Shown piece by piece: positions 3,001 to 20,414 of a stretch of 64,000 bases of DNA (position 1 is its first letter; each line of letters begins with the position of its first letter). The notes under the pieces are model-generated. The model did not search any database. It saw only the letters and a list, made by a program, of their open reading frames with translations, and had not been told where the DNA came from. The stretch comes from Gimesia maris (GTDB taxonomy: Bacteria > Planctomycetota > Planctomycetia > Planctomycetales > Planctomycetaceae), in the NCBI RefSeq assembly GCF_008298035.1, contig NZ_CP042910.1, positions 248,001-312,000 of the forward strand. The letters run 5' to 3'. The position numbers and the translations under genes were made by a program.

Positions 3001-3837
3001 AAGCTGAATCTGAGAACCCGGGCCTGGACAGACCAAAAAGGCAACCAGTTTGAAGCACAACTGACGCGTGTGTTTGCCGGGAATGGATATTTTAGTACCC
3101 CTGTTATGAAACGGGATCAAAGCAACCTCACCCTCAAGCTGCCTCTGAAAAAGTTAAGTACCGAAGATCGTAAATATGTGAATACGATCACCGGGTATCT
3201 GGCTGATAAACGCAAATTATTTGAAACAATTCAGACTGAAGAACATTCGCCGCGACTGAGTATGTCGCAAATTACATCTGGCCTGGAACCGTTTACCTTC
3301 AGAGGTTCGCATTTAGTTCCGCCTTACTCCGTTGACCCTGAAGGCAAACCCTTGCTCAGCTGGCGCGTGCAGATATTACCTGCGATCGGCGGCTACGATC
3401 TGTTTCAACTGTTTCACCACGATGAACCCTGGGACAGTCCGCATAACAGACAGCTGATTCCATTTATGCCCGATTTTTATCGCTCTCCCGATTCTAAAGC
3501 AGATACGGGAAAGGCGAACCTGCTGGGAGTTTCCGGTAAGCATAGTCTGTTCTCTACAGCTGAAGAAGATGAGAAGCCTGAGTTGAAAGATAGCCATAAT
3601 AAGACGGCTTTACTGGTAGAAGTCCCAGACAGTCTGGCAGTCGAATGGACGAAGCCGGCTGACTGGGAGTTTATGGATCAGAATTCCATTAAATCTCTGT
3701 ATGGTTTTCGTCCAGATGGTTTTTATGTCCTGTTTGCCGATGGCAAATCGGAGTTTATTTCCAGCAGCAACTCCCTGAGTACTCTGTCCCGGATGTTTAC
3801 CTGTGATGACGGGCAGTCTTACGAATTAAAAAAATAA
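1..3837 (+). CDS. Two-propeller, Ig-like, SHD1 and DUF1559-type surface protein (5' partial)
   Basis: The reading frame is open to base 1, so the start lies outside the window; at least 1278 residues are present. Two copies of one module follow each other: a beta-propeller-like part opening with a Gly-rich GGGGR(F/Y)LI(F/M)YLK motif (about residues 60-355 and 490-830), each closed by an Ig-like domain of the He_PIG kind (GMTVSPEGLVKWQVP and GMVVSPTGLITWTPP). A charged coiled coil (about 905-1000) leads to an SHD1-like segment (RAWTDQKGNQFEAQL) and a C-terminal DUF1559-type domain (LSWRVQILPAIGG, then EPWDSPHN). No enzyme motif is visible. It is probably an exported or envelope binding protein; the function is unknown. 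The downstream gene begins 18 bp after the stop. Confidence 0.8.
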   Translation: MYREMPGLEPSASRSRITDGEPGKAHLVPVTLPSILPARLKEAKTTVQLPSEFSDVAEGGGGRFLIFYLKKLNQLAVFDVSAARIIKYLPLDAEDVAIAASADKLLVVARDKGFIRRYDLLTFEQELTKPLPEPDMFYRIAMGSASNGPFLLCSGEQLPKQWVLYDLATLEPNGMQVEADRFDVRGGRELLLRASANGRLFTLHDLHHAASIVVGQKSITKHFNTHSGGYPFPSADGKTIYLNGKVYNREMKPQASPFKLPGIPSSTGDFFLTRGDDAKSSTLQIMQPGNPEPLVSVPDIGEPTQGPYYALWRGRENGYRLYFVPDAKMLIFLPLDNRQIELHRFDFEQALKKSGKDYLFLASRPPLTVARGATYTYQVNVNSSPAKVKYTMTIGPEGMTVSPEGLVKWQVPHDFAGKQTEVVLTISNEAGKEVLQTCKLGIEGENTAPETASKEAVTSPDADISTATNSTEMPVIKPVSFKEDQKQIQLPAPMTDLVVGGGGRYLIMYLKNLKRLAVFDCSQAAIVKYLPVDSEDVLIAASGYHLIVLLRDKMLIQRWNLKTLQRELMIPAPTTVPVGGMVMGSASQGPLVLICDTGPSFLFLDPNTMQPIELELMRGSDRNRGTYRGVESRYLKYAHASANGRVIAVGETILLLNDMTYERRLSPRLFRSSGVRKEKDYGMRPNTDGSLIYAPLALYSINMARKESHRHGENLLIPATQPGFCVSVTGHYSRKGSTGVALCLEGESTPFAELKQVDVSLNRLPPDRVFSFTGMAYTKRYTLVPDARLLIQIPTGEDRLILHKVNPELLLKQSDHNYLYVTSGSLSEAHLGKPWQHQIEVQSKQGGVKYQVSYGPKGMVVSPTGLITWTPPEDFASPEEGTVFNVQDQSGKSIMHSVKVSIPGAAENAARRAEEQLAQFKAVKEAQERQAKERRSQEMEKQKQRQLQKPAQSRMRRTPTRQPRAVTTEYAVKVGPIAKAKAEANARAQLQQQIEKLNQQKLNLRTRAWTDQKGNQFEAQLTRVFAGNGYFSTPVMKRDQSNLTLKLPLKKLSTEDRKYVNTITGYLADKRKLFETIQTEEHSPRLSMSQITSGLEPFTFRGSHLVPPYSVDPEGKPLLSWRVQILPAIGGYDLFQLFHHDEPWDSPHNRQLIPFMPDFYRSPDSKADTGKANLLGVSGKHSLFSTAEEDEKPELKDSHNKTALLVEVPDSLAVEWTKPADWEFMDQNSIKSLYGFRPDGFYVLFADGKSEFISSSNSLSTLSRMFTCDDGQSYELKK

Positions 3838-3855
3838 CTGGATGAGGTACTTTCC

Positions 3856-5040
3856 GTGCGCGTTTTATTTTGTCTGATGCTGACTGTGTCCTTGATCCTG
3901 TTTTCGGGCAGCTTGCTGTCTGCGCAGGAATCGGTGACGTCGACGGTGTCCGTGCCATCAATTGAATTCAGGAAATATCAGGGTGGACATCAGGATCTGA
4001 AGCTGCCGGCTGAGATTACCGATGTGAGTCTGGCGGGGCAGGGACGTTATCTGCTGATTTACATGCAGTCATTGCGCAGGGTCAGCGTGTACGATGTGAA
4101 TGAGGTCCGGATCATTAAAAATCTGGCGATGGCGACAGACGATGCGCTGATCGTCGGCGGGGCTGCAGAGATGCTTGTCGTGAATCGCTCTCAGAACCTG
4201 CTGGAACGCTGGTCACTGGGGACCTTTCAGCGGGAGGCTGTCAAACTGCTGCCAATCAGGGGCGAAGTCACACGCCTCAAACTGGGTTTTGACTCCTGCG
4301 GCCCGTTGAAACTGACCTGGAAGGAAGTCCGTTCCGATCTTACCCTGCGTGGCAATCCTGAGCGCTATTTTGACTTGCAGACCCTGGAAGAGGTCGCCGC
4401 TCCCGAGCCGCACCTGGTACAGAAATTATCCAAAGAAGAGCAGAAATTTAACAGTAAGATGGGAATCTGCAGTCATCCGGATTATGCCATTTCGTTACCG
4501 CTTCGACTGGATGACAAGAAACGATTTCCGACGGGTGAAGGAAACACCGAGCACGTGAGCATCTTCACCAGGAAGCCGGTGAAACAGCTGGGATACGCGG
4601 AAATCGCGTTTATGGAGCATCAGGATTACAGTCCGCTGGAACGACTGTTTACAGTCAGGAAACGGATCTATTTCATTCCGCAGGCAGACCAGGTTCTGTC
4701 GATCCCCTTTCCCAGTGATCGCCTGCATGTCTCCCGGTTGGCGCTGCGCAAACTGTTGGAAAAGGAACCGCCTTATTTAGTCGTGTCTTCCGTTCCCTCC
4801 AAAGTCTGCTGGCGTGGACAGGAGTGGCAGTATCAACTTCAGCTGGAATCCTCTGCAGACGATGTATCCGTCGAGTTGAGCGCGGCACCAGAGGGCATGC
4901 AGATTACCGAATCCGCAAAGCTGACCTGGCGTGTCCCCGAGGACCTCCAGGCTGATCAGGCGTTTGTGATTCTCACACTCACACCGCGCGGAGGGAAGGC
5001 GAAATTTCAAAAGTTCCCGCTGGAAGTACGGGATCGGTAA
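3856..5040 (+). CDS. Secreted single-propeller/Ig-like paralogue
   Basis: 394 residues from a GTG start preceded by GATGAGG. The N-terminus is a signal peptide (LTVSLILFSGSLLSAQ). The rest is one propeller-like module (QGRYLLIYMQSLRRVSVYD) with a C-terminal Ig-like domain (APEGMQITESAKLTWRVPED). It is a single-module relative of the gene before it and lacks the coiled coil, SHD1 and DUF1559-type parts. Position and strand suggest it is co-transcribed with its neighbours. No catalytic motif was seen; a structural or ligand-binding role outside the cytoplasm is inferred. Confidence 0.8.
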   Translation: MRVLFCLMLTVSLILFSGSLLSAQESVTSTVSVPSIEFRKYQGGHQDLKLPAEITDVSLAGQGRYLLIYMQSLRRVSVYDVNEVRIIKNLAMATDDALIVGGAAEMLVVNRSQNLLERWSLGTFQREAVKLLPIRGEVTRLKLGFDSCGPLKLTWKEVRSDLTLRGNPERYFDLQTLEEVAAPEPHLVQKLSKEEQKFNSKMGICSHPDYAISLPLRLDDKKRFPTGEGNTEHVSIFTRKPVKQLGYAEIAFMEHQDYSPLERLFTVRKRIYFIPQADQVLSIPFPSDRLHVSRLALRKLLEKEPPYLVVSSVPSKVCWRGQEWQYQLQLESSADDVSVELSAAPEGMQITESAKLTWRVPEDLQADQAFVILTLTPRGGKAKFQKFPLEVRDR

Positions 5041-17276: not shown

Positions 17277-17691
<415 letters not shown>

Positions 17692-17837
17692 GCTCAACGA
17701 TGCCGGTCACGGTTTTTCGTCTGCTTTCTGATTTACAGAAACTGCTGAAAGTTTTTTGAAAGTGGCGAACCGGTTTTCTGTGCTTCCTGTCTATAACCAG
17801 CAGTTGGCGAACGCGTTTGGTCGACTCTGAATAATCT

Positions 17838-17908
17838 GCCTTGCGAGTGTGATGGATGCACAATGGTCTTCGGAACCATTAGACGGGGTTCGACTCCCTG
17901 GTGAGGTA
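17838..17908 (+). tRNA. tRNA-like gene, anticodon TCG (tRNA-Arg?)
   Basis: A 71-nt cloverleaf can be drawn by hand: acceptor GCCTTGC/GTGAGGT (7 pairs, three G-U), D stem GTG/CAC with a loop containing GG, anticodon stem ATGGT/ACCAT with loop CTTCGGA, 4-nt variable region, T stem CGGGG/CCCTG with loop TTCGACT, discriminator A. No CCA is encoded. Position 8 is G, not the usual U, and the acceptor has many wobble pairs, so it may be a divergent tRNA or a mimic. It leads the RNA array. Confidence 0.6.
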
Positions 17909-17917
17909 CTTTTGATT

Positions 17918-17989
17918 GACGCTGATACCTGATGGCCGGGAAACTGCCTGCAAAGCAGTTTGAAGTGGGTTCGATTCCCACCGGCGTCT
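17918..17989 (+). tRNA. tRNA-Cys (GCA)
   Basis: A 72-nt cloverleaf: acceptor GACGCTG/CGGCGTC, anticodon stem ACTGC/GCAGT with loop CTGCAAA giving anticodon GCA, T stem GTGGG/CCCAC with loop TTCGATT, discriminator T as expected for tRNA-Cys. The D arm is weak (CC/GG around TGATGGCC). No CCA is encoded. It starts nine bases after the previous tRNA-like gene and ends two bases before the first Y-RNA-like unit, suggesting processing from one transcript. Confidence 0.7.
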
Positions 17990-17991
17990 TT

Positions 17992-18066
17992 AACCGACCA
18001 ACTGTCGGCTCGGACTACATCTTTATGACAGAAACGATGTCTGAGTGATTTCTTCGTTGGCCGGTT
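17992..18066 (+). ncRNA. Y-RNA-like unit 1 (short form)
   Basis: About 75 nt. The 5' strand AACCGACCAAC pairs with the 3' strand GTTGGCCGGTT, with one A-C mismatch. Inside the 5' strand is ACTG, a small hairpin (GTC/GAC) and CTACAT; before the 3' strand is CTTC. The body is a single hairpin (ACATC/GATGT) with no tRNA-like arms. Shared ends with units 2-5 and the adjacent TROVE gene support a Ro60-binding RNA. Whether it is a stable RNA is not known. Confidence 0.6.
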
Positions 18067-18074
18067 TGTTGAAC

Positions 18075-18258
18075 AATCCAACTGCCCGTCGGGATTACAT
18101 TATGACGGTCCTGAGGTAGCCAACCTGGAGCGATCCAGGAAAGGTGAGCGCAACGGCATCTCTTTGAGATGGTCTGGCGTGTGCCCACTGTCGGTCTCAC
18201 ATGCGACCGATAAGAGCGGCCGAGAACAGCAACAATCTCGACAACCCTTCGTTGGGCT
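18075..18258 (+). ncRNA. Y-RNA-like unit 2 (long, multi-hairpin body)
   Basis: About 184 nt. TCCAAC near the 5' end pairs with GTTGGG at the 3' end. ACTG, hairpin CCC/GGG and TTACAT follow the 5' strand; CTTC precedes the 3' strand. The body differs from the other units: CCTGG/CCAGG (18124-18139), CATCTC/GAGATG (18157-18171) and TCGGTC/GACCGA (18191-18210) form three clean hairpins, none with a canonical TTCGA T loop. It could present a different partner-binding domain. Confidence 0.55.
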
Positions 18259-18271
18259 TATTAAGAACATT

Positions 18272-18415
18272 TGATCGACTGCCAGACTGGAGTACATGGT
18301 TCAGGACCCGGTGGTTGCGGGTTCGACTCCCGCCGGCGCTATTTTCAATGTGTGTCGCGCCGTAGCTCAACGGATAGAGCACCGTAAACGCTCTGGTTTA
18401 AAACTTCGTCGATCA
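18272..18415 (+). ncRNA. YrlA-type Y-RNA-like unit 3 with permuted tRNA-like domain
   Basis: 144 nt. Outer stem TGATCGAC/GTCGATCA is perfect. ACTG, hairpin CCAG/CTGG and GTACAT follow. The body is tRNA-like but permuted: T arm GCGGG-TTCGACT-CCCGC (18317-18333), acceptor-like stem CGGCGC/GCGCCG closed by a 17-nt loop, then TA and D arm GCTC-AACGGATA-GAGC (18365-18380). CGGT/ACCG takes the place of the anticodon stem. This is the layout described for YrlA RNAs, which tie Rsr to an effector and resemble tRNA. Confidence 0.75.
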
Positions 18416-18430
18416 TTCTTCACAAGAGAC

Positions 18431-18578
18431 ATAACTGACTGCCGAATGGGAGTACATGAAAATTAACCCGGAGGATGTGGGTTCGATTCCCACCAGCGCA
18501 ATTTCGCTAAGCCTGTCGCGCTGTAGCTCAACAGGTAGAGCACCGTTAAAAACTCTGATTCACCACTTCGTTGGTTAT
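18431..18578 (+). ncRNA. YrlA-type Y-RNA-like unit 4 with permuted tRNA-like domain
   Basis: 148 nt. Outer stem ATAACTGAC/GTTGGTTAT (9 pairs, two G-U). ACTG, hairpin CC/GG and GTACAT follow. T arm GTGGG-TTCGATT-CCCAC (18477-18493), acceptor-like stem CAGCGC/GCGCTG, D arm GCTC-AACAGGTA-GAGC (18526-18541). Compared with unit 3, an acceptor pair has changed from G-C to A-T on both strands, which supports real pairing. TTAAC/GTTAA extends the stem below the D arm. Confidence 0.75.
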
Positions 18579-18586
18579 TTAATACA

Positions 18587-18728
18587 CACTCGACTGCCGG
18601 TGTGGAGTACATGGTGAAGCTGGTTCGATTCCTGCCCGGCCGCTTTGTTACAAGAGTTATGCGGCCGGCCCCTGTGAATCGCGTGTGTGGTATCGCAGGG
18701 AGGTCTCTGCCCATCATTTCGTCGAGTG
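18587..18728 (+). ncRNA. YrlA-type Y-RNA-like unit 5 with altered D arm
   Basis: 142 nt. Outer stem CACTCGAC/GTCGAGTG is perfect. ACTG, small hairpin and GTACAT follow. T arm GCTGG-TTCGATT-CCTGC has one T-T mismatch. The acceptor-like stem is long and perfect, CCGGCCGC/GCGGCCGG, closed by a 17-nt loop. The usual D arm is replaced by CCCTG/CAGGG around a longer loop. It is the last unit; a terminator follows 21 bases later. Confidence 0.7.
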
Positions 18729-18749
18729 CTATTTACAGGATCCGGCTGC

Positions 18750-18775
18750 CGTCAGTGAGGACTGACGCCTTTTTC
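18750..18775 (+). terminator. Terminator or attenuator between RNA array and rsr
   Basis: CGTCAGT pairs with ACTGACG around GAGG, followed two bases later by five T. It ends the array and lies 29 bases before the TROVE start codon. Read-through would allow coupled expression. Confidence 0.7.
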
Positions 18776-18803
18776 GCCGGTTCCCTTTTTGAAGGAGGCT
18801 ATG

Positions 18804-20414
<1,611 letters not shown>

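Follow-up and report, generated by a model that had tools for sequence, protein, structure and literature searches.

Second, clustered sets of tRNA genes are known beside the housekeeping set. According to the available text of PMC10272220, the trn operon of Anabaena sp. PCC 7120 comprises 26 clustered tRNAs on a megaplasmid, is silent under repression by TrcR and is activated by translation inhibitors or stress; in a trcR mutant, the rise of the operon is accompanied by that of an HNH gene, rtcB and a slipin gene. Tandem arrays on mycobacterial plasmids and phages likewise consist of clustered, redundant and divergent tRNAs, often with an HNH gene (PMC5966550 and PMC12803027, available text). 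Ro60 homologues accompany Y RNAs in the Salmonella rsr-yrlBA-rtcBA locus, where YrlA carries a tRNA-like domain (PMC7790460, accessible part), and Y RNAs have been proposed near the Rsr gene of a Listeria phage (PMC12282133, accessible part). We also found rtcR-Ro60-rtcB loci on plasmids. As far as these sources extend, tRNA arrays with HNH genes and Ro60 with Y RNAs and RtcB are both already known associations.

The locus described here lies in the window, the whole 64-kb stretch of DNA that was analysed. It is similar to the Anabaena trn operon in being part of a second clustered tRNA set next to housekeeping tRNAs. Unlike here, neither Y RNAs nor Ro60 are mentioned with the trn operon in the available text (PMC10272220), and stress induction has been shown in Anabaena, whereas the window locus is known from sequence alone. 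The available text on the mycobacterial arrays also differs in lacking mention of Y RNAs or Ro60 ("Y RNA" and "Planctomyc" each have 0 occurrences). In Salmonella, the Y RNAs follow rsr and rtcB is adjacent (PMC7790460, accessible part); in the window, the Y RNAs precede Ro60. Searches of the whole genome return one TROVE match (C1:266807-268411) and a single RtcB match (C1:1702411-1703454), 1.4 Mb apart; linkage to RtcB, or membership of an rsr-rtcBA operon, was rejected because rtcB is not adjacent to Ro60 here. Myxococcus phage Mx1 encodes a Ro60 homologue (39% identity), tRNAs, HNH and peptidyl-tRNA hydrolase within 14 kb, but its tRNAs are scattered between genes. The combination of a tRNA array with Y RNAs and Ro60 was not found among the top matches listed in the open-licence literature. 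The features of the locus are as follows.

17765-17795, + strand: promoter-like block GCGAACC-N16-TGTCTAT 5' of the first tRNA; kept in same-genus loci, putative function
17838-17909, + strand: tRNA-Arg(UCG), array-type, G8, discriminator A at 17908; ARAGORN, Rfam RF00005, covariation
17918-17989, + strand: tRNA-Cys(GCA), array-type, A8, discriminator U at 17989, no encoded CCA; ARAGORN, RF00005, covariation
17990-17991, + strand: two-base junction TT, conserved spacing; putative RNase Z cut expected between 17989 and 17990
17992-18066, + strand: Y RNA unit 1 (Y1), short, without a tRNA-like module; fold, covariation in 21 aligned units
18077-18257, + strand: Y RNA-like unit 2, with 23S rRNA-like segment; box positions, blastn, limits by eye
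18272-18415, + strand: Y RNA-like unit 3, circularly permuted tRNA-like module; YrlA model, limits by eye
18431-18578, + strand: Y RNA-like unit 4, circularly permuted tRNA-like module; YrlA model, fold, limits by eye
18588-18729, + strand: Y RNA-like unit 5; YrlA model at 18.3 bits, fold, limits by eye
18801-20414, + strand: Ro60 homologue with TROVE and Ro60 vWA domains; Pfam PF25045 and PF05731 above cut-off

The Arg(tcg) and Cys(gca) genes are the only tRNAs that ARAGORN calls in the window, and both reach the RF00005 gathering score of 29 bits, Arg with 40.0 and Cys with exactly 29.0. Two tRNA genes abutting the Y RNA array, the first with anticodon TCG, had been read in the preliminary description, and the programs agree with it. 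The G at position 8 that it reported is correct for Arg and is invariant among the array Arg(tcg) genes (20/20), and the three wobbles it saw in the Arg acceptor are G1-U72, U5-G68 and G6-U67. Decay was rejected as the cause of these wobbles: acceptor positions form standard pairs in 100% of cells across 17 distinct Arg sequences. Its suggestion that this gene may be specialised holds in the sense that the pair belongs to a divergent, conserved second tRNA set. U8 is present in 42 of 43 housekeeping tRNAs versus 99 of the 199 parsed array tRNAs upstream of Ro60; among array tRNAs, G8 also occurs in 15/16 Arg(gcg) and 18/21 Cys genes. No CCA is encoded in any of the 43 housekeeping tRNAs, the 18 array tRNAs elsewhere in the same genome or the 199 parsed array tRNAs upstream of Ro60 (22 of 221 could not be parsed and hence are absent from the position-8 and CCA counts).

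A count of other Cys and Arg genes had been proposed as a check. Outside the arrays, ARAGORN on the fetched tRNA places finds one Cys(GCA) gene and five Arg genes (TCT, CCT, TCG, CCG and ACG), numbers that are lower bounds: 150 of 341 candidates were scored, and the window's own Cys is not among the matches listed. These belong to 43 tRNAs outside the arrays. Since normal housekeeping copies of both Cys(GCA) and Arg(TCG) are present, the pair in the window is redundant, and the idea that it supplies the sole Cys or Arg genes was discarded.

The pair is best understood from the loci of other planctomycetes. Of 59 relatives, 14 have a Ro60 homologue, as do 36 named loci; with the window included, the loci number 50. 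Of the named loci, 35 bear a planctomycete taxon (some genera being taken as planctomycete) and one is labelled only "bacterium". The 44 loci with at least 1.2 kb of upstream sequence were used, and six with less were dropped. Upstream of Ro60, 34 of the 44 contain a tRNA, 15 five or more, 6 ten or more and 3 twenty or more; ARAGORN calls none in the remaining 10. All 221 upstream tRNAs point in the sense direction toward Ro60 (0 antisense), and pooled over the loci they cover all 20 amino acids. A frequent order at the 3' end runs Trp, Thr, several Arg and Cys, then Y RNAs and Ro60. Dense arrays occur in relatives such as L111 (37 tRNAs) and L083 (25); the window, with two tRNAs, does not hold a dense array, and same-genus Ro60 loci have two or three upstream tRNAs each. 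Three loci, L083, L108 and L111, carry an HNH-type gene that separates His from the tRNA after it (Pfam was run on L083 only).

The genome of the window holds its second tRNA set as three separated pieces. One, at 2.256 Mb (L041 7805-9854), contains 13 ARAGORN tRNAs and, read by eye, one further Ala-like tRNA; a 2OG-Fe(II) oxygenase gene comes after them. Another, at 3.781 Mb, reads Phe-Glu-Ser-Ser-His and then an HNH gene; such an HNH gene with its tRNAs occurs at every same-genus HNH locus (16 of 16), whether or not Ro60 is present. Nineteen of the 20 array tRNAs of this genome (18 plus the window's two) are closer to an array tRNA of another genus than to its own housekeeping tRNAs. The simplest account would be one ancestral array, later split, with the window as its 3' end. 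The preliminary view of a tRNA pair linked to Y RNAs is in this respect correct and too narrow: the pair is the end of an array that occurs, whole or broken, in many planctomycetes.

Comparison of the sequences indicates that the structures of both tRNAs and the stems of Y1 are under selection. In the Arg alignment (17 distinct sequences), pairing extends to 99.7% of cells, and both sides vary in 12 of 21 pairs; for Cys (19 distinct sequences, L111 omitted as its anticodon arm is missing), the values are 94.9% and 8 of 21. These pairing and covariation values are equalled in none of 500 shuffles. The count of further pair types speaks less clearly, since for Cys 98 and for Arg 22 of the 500 shuffles match it. 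Arg genes were grouped by anticodon, so that conservation of the Arg anticodon follows from the selection of rows. In Y1 (21 units, without L099 and L113), 93.8% of cells are paired and 10 of 17 pairs change on both sides, which 0 of 500 shuffles reach. The covariation contradicts the possibility that the window tRNAs are pseudogenes.

The two-base gap between tRNA-Cys and Y1 is as originally described: the Cys discriminator is T 17989 and the predicted outer stem of Y1 starts at 17992. An array-type Cys gene is found by pattern search in 23 loci, and a Y box follows it in 21; L099 and L113 have the Cys gene and no Y box after it. The distance from discriminator to box is 8 nt in 20 of these 21 loci (L095 and L108 read by eye) and 9 nt in L088. 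The letters in between vary among loci, and other tRNA-tRNA spacers range from 0 to 116 nt (n=154, gaps under 120 counted). Judged from sequence comparison, the junction exceeds chance, recurring in distant planctomycetes with nearly fixed spacing. The predicted fold of a 233-nt stretch consists of two cloverleaves and the Y1 hairpin, with three unpaired bases at the junction including the discriminator; its overall stability is unremarkable (z -1.13), and Y1 alone has a z of -2.12. In L111, the Cys anticodon arm is gone and the acceptor, T arm and junction are retained; this case, from one MAG, is no more than suggestive.

A block similar to GCGAACC-N16-TGTCTWT precedes the first tRNA in 9 of 9 same-genus Ro60 loci, and each of the other two array pieces of the genome has a comparable block upstream, at distances of about 350 and 336 nt. 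We take it to resemble an ECF-sigma promoter. Genome-wide the motif is a weak marker (28 sites versus 14 for a reversed control), and among 20 housekeeping tRNAs examined, two also have it upstream (Lys at -204, Thr at -52). No sigma-70-type promoter was found on the + strand between 17250 and 18850; one on the - strand compares with 1.3 in shuffles. A terminator-like hairpin at 18750-18767 was dismissed as chance level (1 found, 1.8 in shuffles). A perfect (TC)27.5 repeat lies at 17634-17688, about 75 bases 5' of the promoter-like block, and is absent in the aligned same-genus loci.

We propose that the window tRNAs are the last members, in this genome, of an old second tRNA set, which is joined at its 3' end to Y RNAs and Ro60. 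A single transcript would run from the conserved block 5' of tRNA-Arg through Arg, Cys and the Y RNAs, and RNase P and RNase Z would free the tRNAs. A tRNA without encoded CCA calls for RNase Z. With no CCA encoded, RNase Z is expected to cut after the Cys discriminator, which would leave Y1 with a two-base 5' leader beside its stem. That tRNAs and Y RNAs share one precursor, and that this cut makes the 5' end of Y1, is in our judgement fairly probable. We infer from the arrangement a single transcript, cut by RNase Z, whose tRNAs would be charged and whose Y RNAs would be bound by Ro60.

The components of this proposal, both foreseen in the preliminary description, differ in strength. Common transcription is well supported by layout: the genes lie on the same strand, the gap is two bases and a conserved block precedes Arg, so that a common precursor is plausible, the transcript itself being deduced. 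A separate promoter between the tRNA and unit 1, named beforehand as what would refute it, has no room in two bases, although transcription may start inside the tRNA genes. Constant spacing favors formation of the Y1 5' end by tRNA 3' processing, as do the lack of encoded CCA and a junction predicted to be unpaired. Such processing would concern unit 1 only; units 2 and later need other cuts.

This last point also bears on a rather unlikely alternative, in which co-transcription is real, the Y1 5' end comes from another nuclease or from trimming to the Ro60-protected stem, and the gap reflects operon compactness. Units 2-5 must in any case be freed without a preceding tRNA, and the RNase Z-like genes of the genome (5 matches) all fall under the curated cut-off (0/5 reach it). 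The fixed spacing could be mere compactness, but neighbouring spacers vary, whereas 8 nt recur in 20 of the 21 loci. Array tRNAs might also act outside translation, whether by serving as decoys or by being substrates for Ro60 or tRNA-cutting enzymes. The loss of U8 (99/199 in arrays against 42/43 in housekeeping tRNAs) is specific to isoacceptors, as such roles would allow, but we consider them improbable given what the genes retain: CCA-less ends, the cloverleaf and, in 22 of 22 aligned Cys genes (L111 excluded), both U73 and the GCA anticodon. These two features are identity elements for CysRS.

Least of all do we expect the tRNAs to be what is left of a mobile or phage tRNA cluster in decay, placed beside the Y RNAs by chance, a highly improbable origin. 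It would fit the arrays of mycobacterial plasmids and phages (PMC5966550 and PMC12803027, available text), the Ro60 homologue among the tRNA genes of Mx1 and the D stem of array Cys, which pairs in just 76.3% of cells; the compensatory changes in both Arg and Cys, and an order and junction conserved across genera, speak against it.

The tRNAs may serve as backups made alongside a Ro60-Y RNA particle under translational stress, a role drawn by analogy with the Anabaena trn operon. The broader notion of an integrated planctomycete translation-rescue locus, in which divergent backup tRNAs covering every amino acid, an HNH nuclease and a Ro60 particle would all derive from one precursor, is tentative and, taken as a whole, doubtful. 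Were it true, the Y RNAs would mimic tRNA and a piece of 23S rRNA, and tRNA maturation would release a Y RNA, coupling tRNA replacement to RNA quality control. Conservation of the physical join suggests that the second tRNA set and the Y RNAs are active under the same circumstances. It also provides a way, open to testing, for an enzyme of tRNA maturation to define the end of a regulatory RNA.

The association with Ro60 was followed with R1, a covariance model of Cys and the first Y strand (17-row alignment without L068, L069, L071, L099 and L113). In the nine same-genus genomes that have Ro60, R1 scores at least 99.7 bits; in the eight that lack it, the score is at most 52. This comparison does not amount to 17 independent events, since the model was built partly from genomes in which it is found and the genomes are related. 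Planctomycetes lacking Ro60 (L151-L155, L157) keep an array-type Cys, in some at array ends, and have no Y box; Cys is therefore not retained for Y1 alone. In these genomes another tRNA-like stretch with varying anticodon follows the Cys. An SPFH/Band_7 gene is next in L151 (region 3012-4792) and L155 (both by Pfam) and in L153 (by eye), which may be compared with the slipin gene raised in the Anabaena trcR mutant (available text).

In a sample of the phylum, 38 of 392 genomes give a Ro60 match. Among 21 new loci read, six encode a Ro60 65-75% identical to that of the window; four of these have an upstream Y box and four an upstream tRNA. The other 15, at 44-48% identity, have Y boxes downstream in 10 and upstream in none, RtcB motifs downstream in three and an upstream tRNA array in one.

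The window's Ro60 scores 45.4 bits with PF05731 and 51.4 bits with PF25045, both over cut-off, and so contains TROVE and vWA domains, with just 63 residues aligned in the best TROVE stretch. The Y RNAs are its putative partners, considered here through neighbourhood and stem covariation. Against the YrlA model RF02553 (gathering score 69), units 3 (match at 18309-18386) and 4 score 44.8 and 39.9 bits, below threshold, and align through T arm, joined acceptor and D arm, as a permuted tRNA-like module does; unit 5 is non-significant (18.3 bits, E 0.87). The model also gives ordinary tandem tRNAs 24.0 and 19.4 bits, so that low YrlA scores alone are weak proof. Units 3 and 4 fold no better than shuffles (z 0.07 and -0.57).

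To RF00005, the stretch 18356-18501, made up of unit 3's D half and unit 4's T half, is one tRNA with a long insert (39.2 bits); the permuted module thus resembles the junction of two tandem tRNAs. The nearest likeness of the unit 3 D half is the genome's own housekeeping Arg(tcg) gene. Within unit 2 lies a 23S rRNA-like segment, GACGGTCCTAAGGTAGC, which is common to 19 loci and has one difference in the window. By blastn, a 121-base stretch of L104 has matches in 5375 of 5426 E. coli genomes (best 30 nt, 96.7%, E 2e-3), and all three listed places lie within E. coli 23S rRNA. The segment may mimic helix 69-71.

The Phe-Glu-Ser-Ser-His-HNH piece has features of its own upstream. In 14 of 14 same-genus loci (L042 7445-7780 and L121-L136), a hairpin and T run are seen by eye just 5' of tRNA-Phe. 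Other features before this piece are a GCGAAC promoter-like motif in 11 of the 14 and, in 6, a small ORF with PLR and one final residue at its C-terminus. Hairpin and ORF together possibly form a leader-peptide attenuator.
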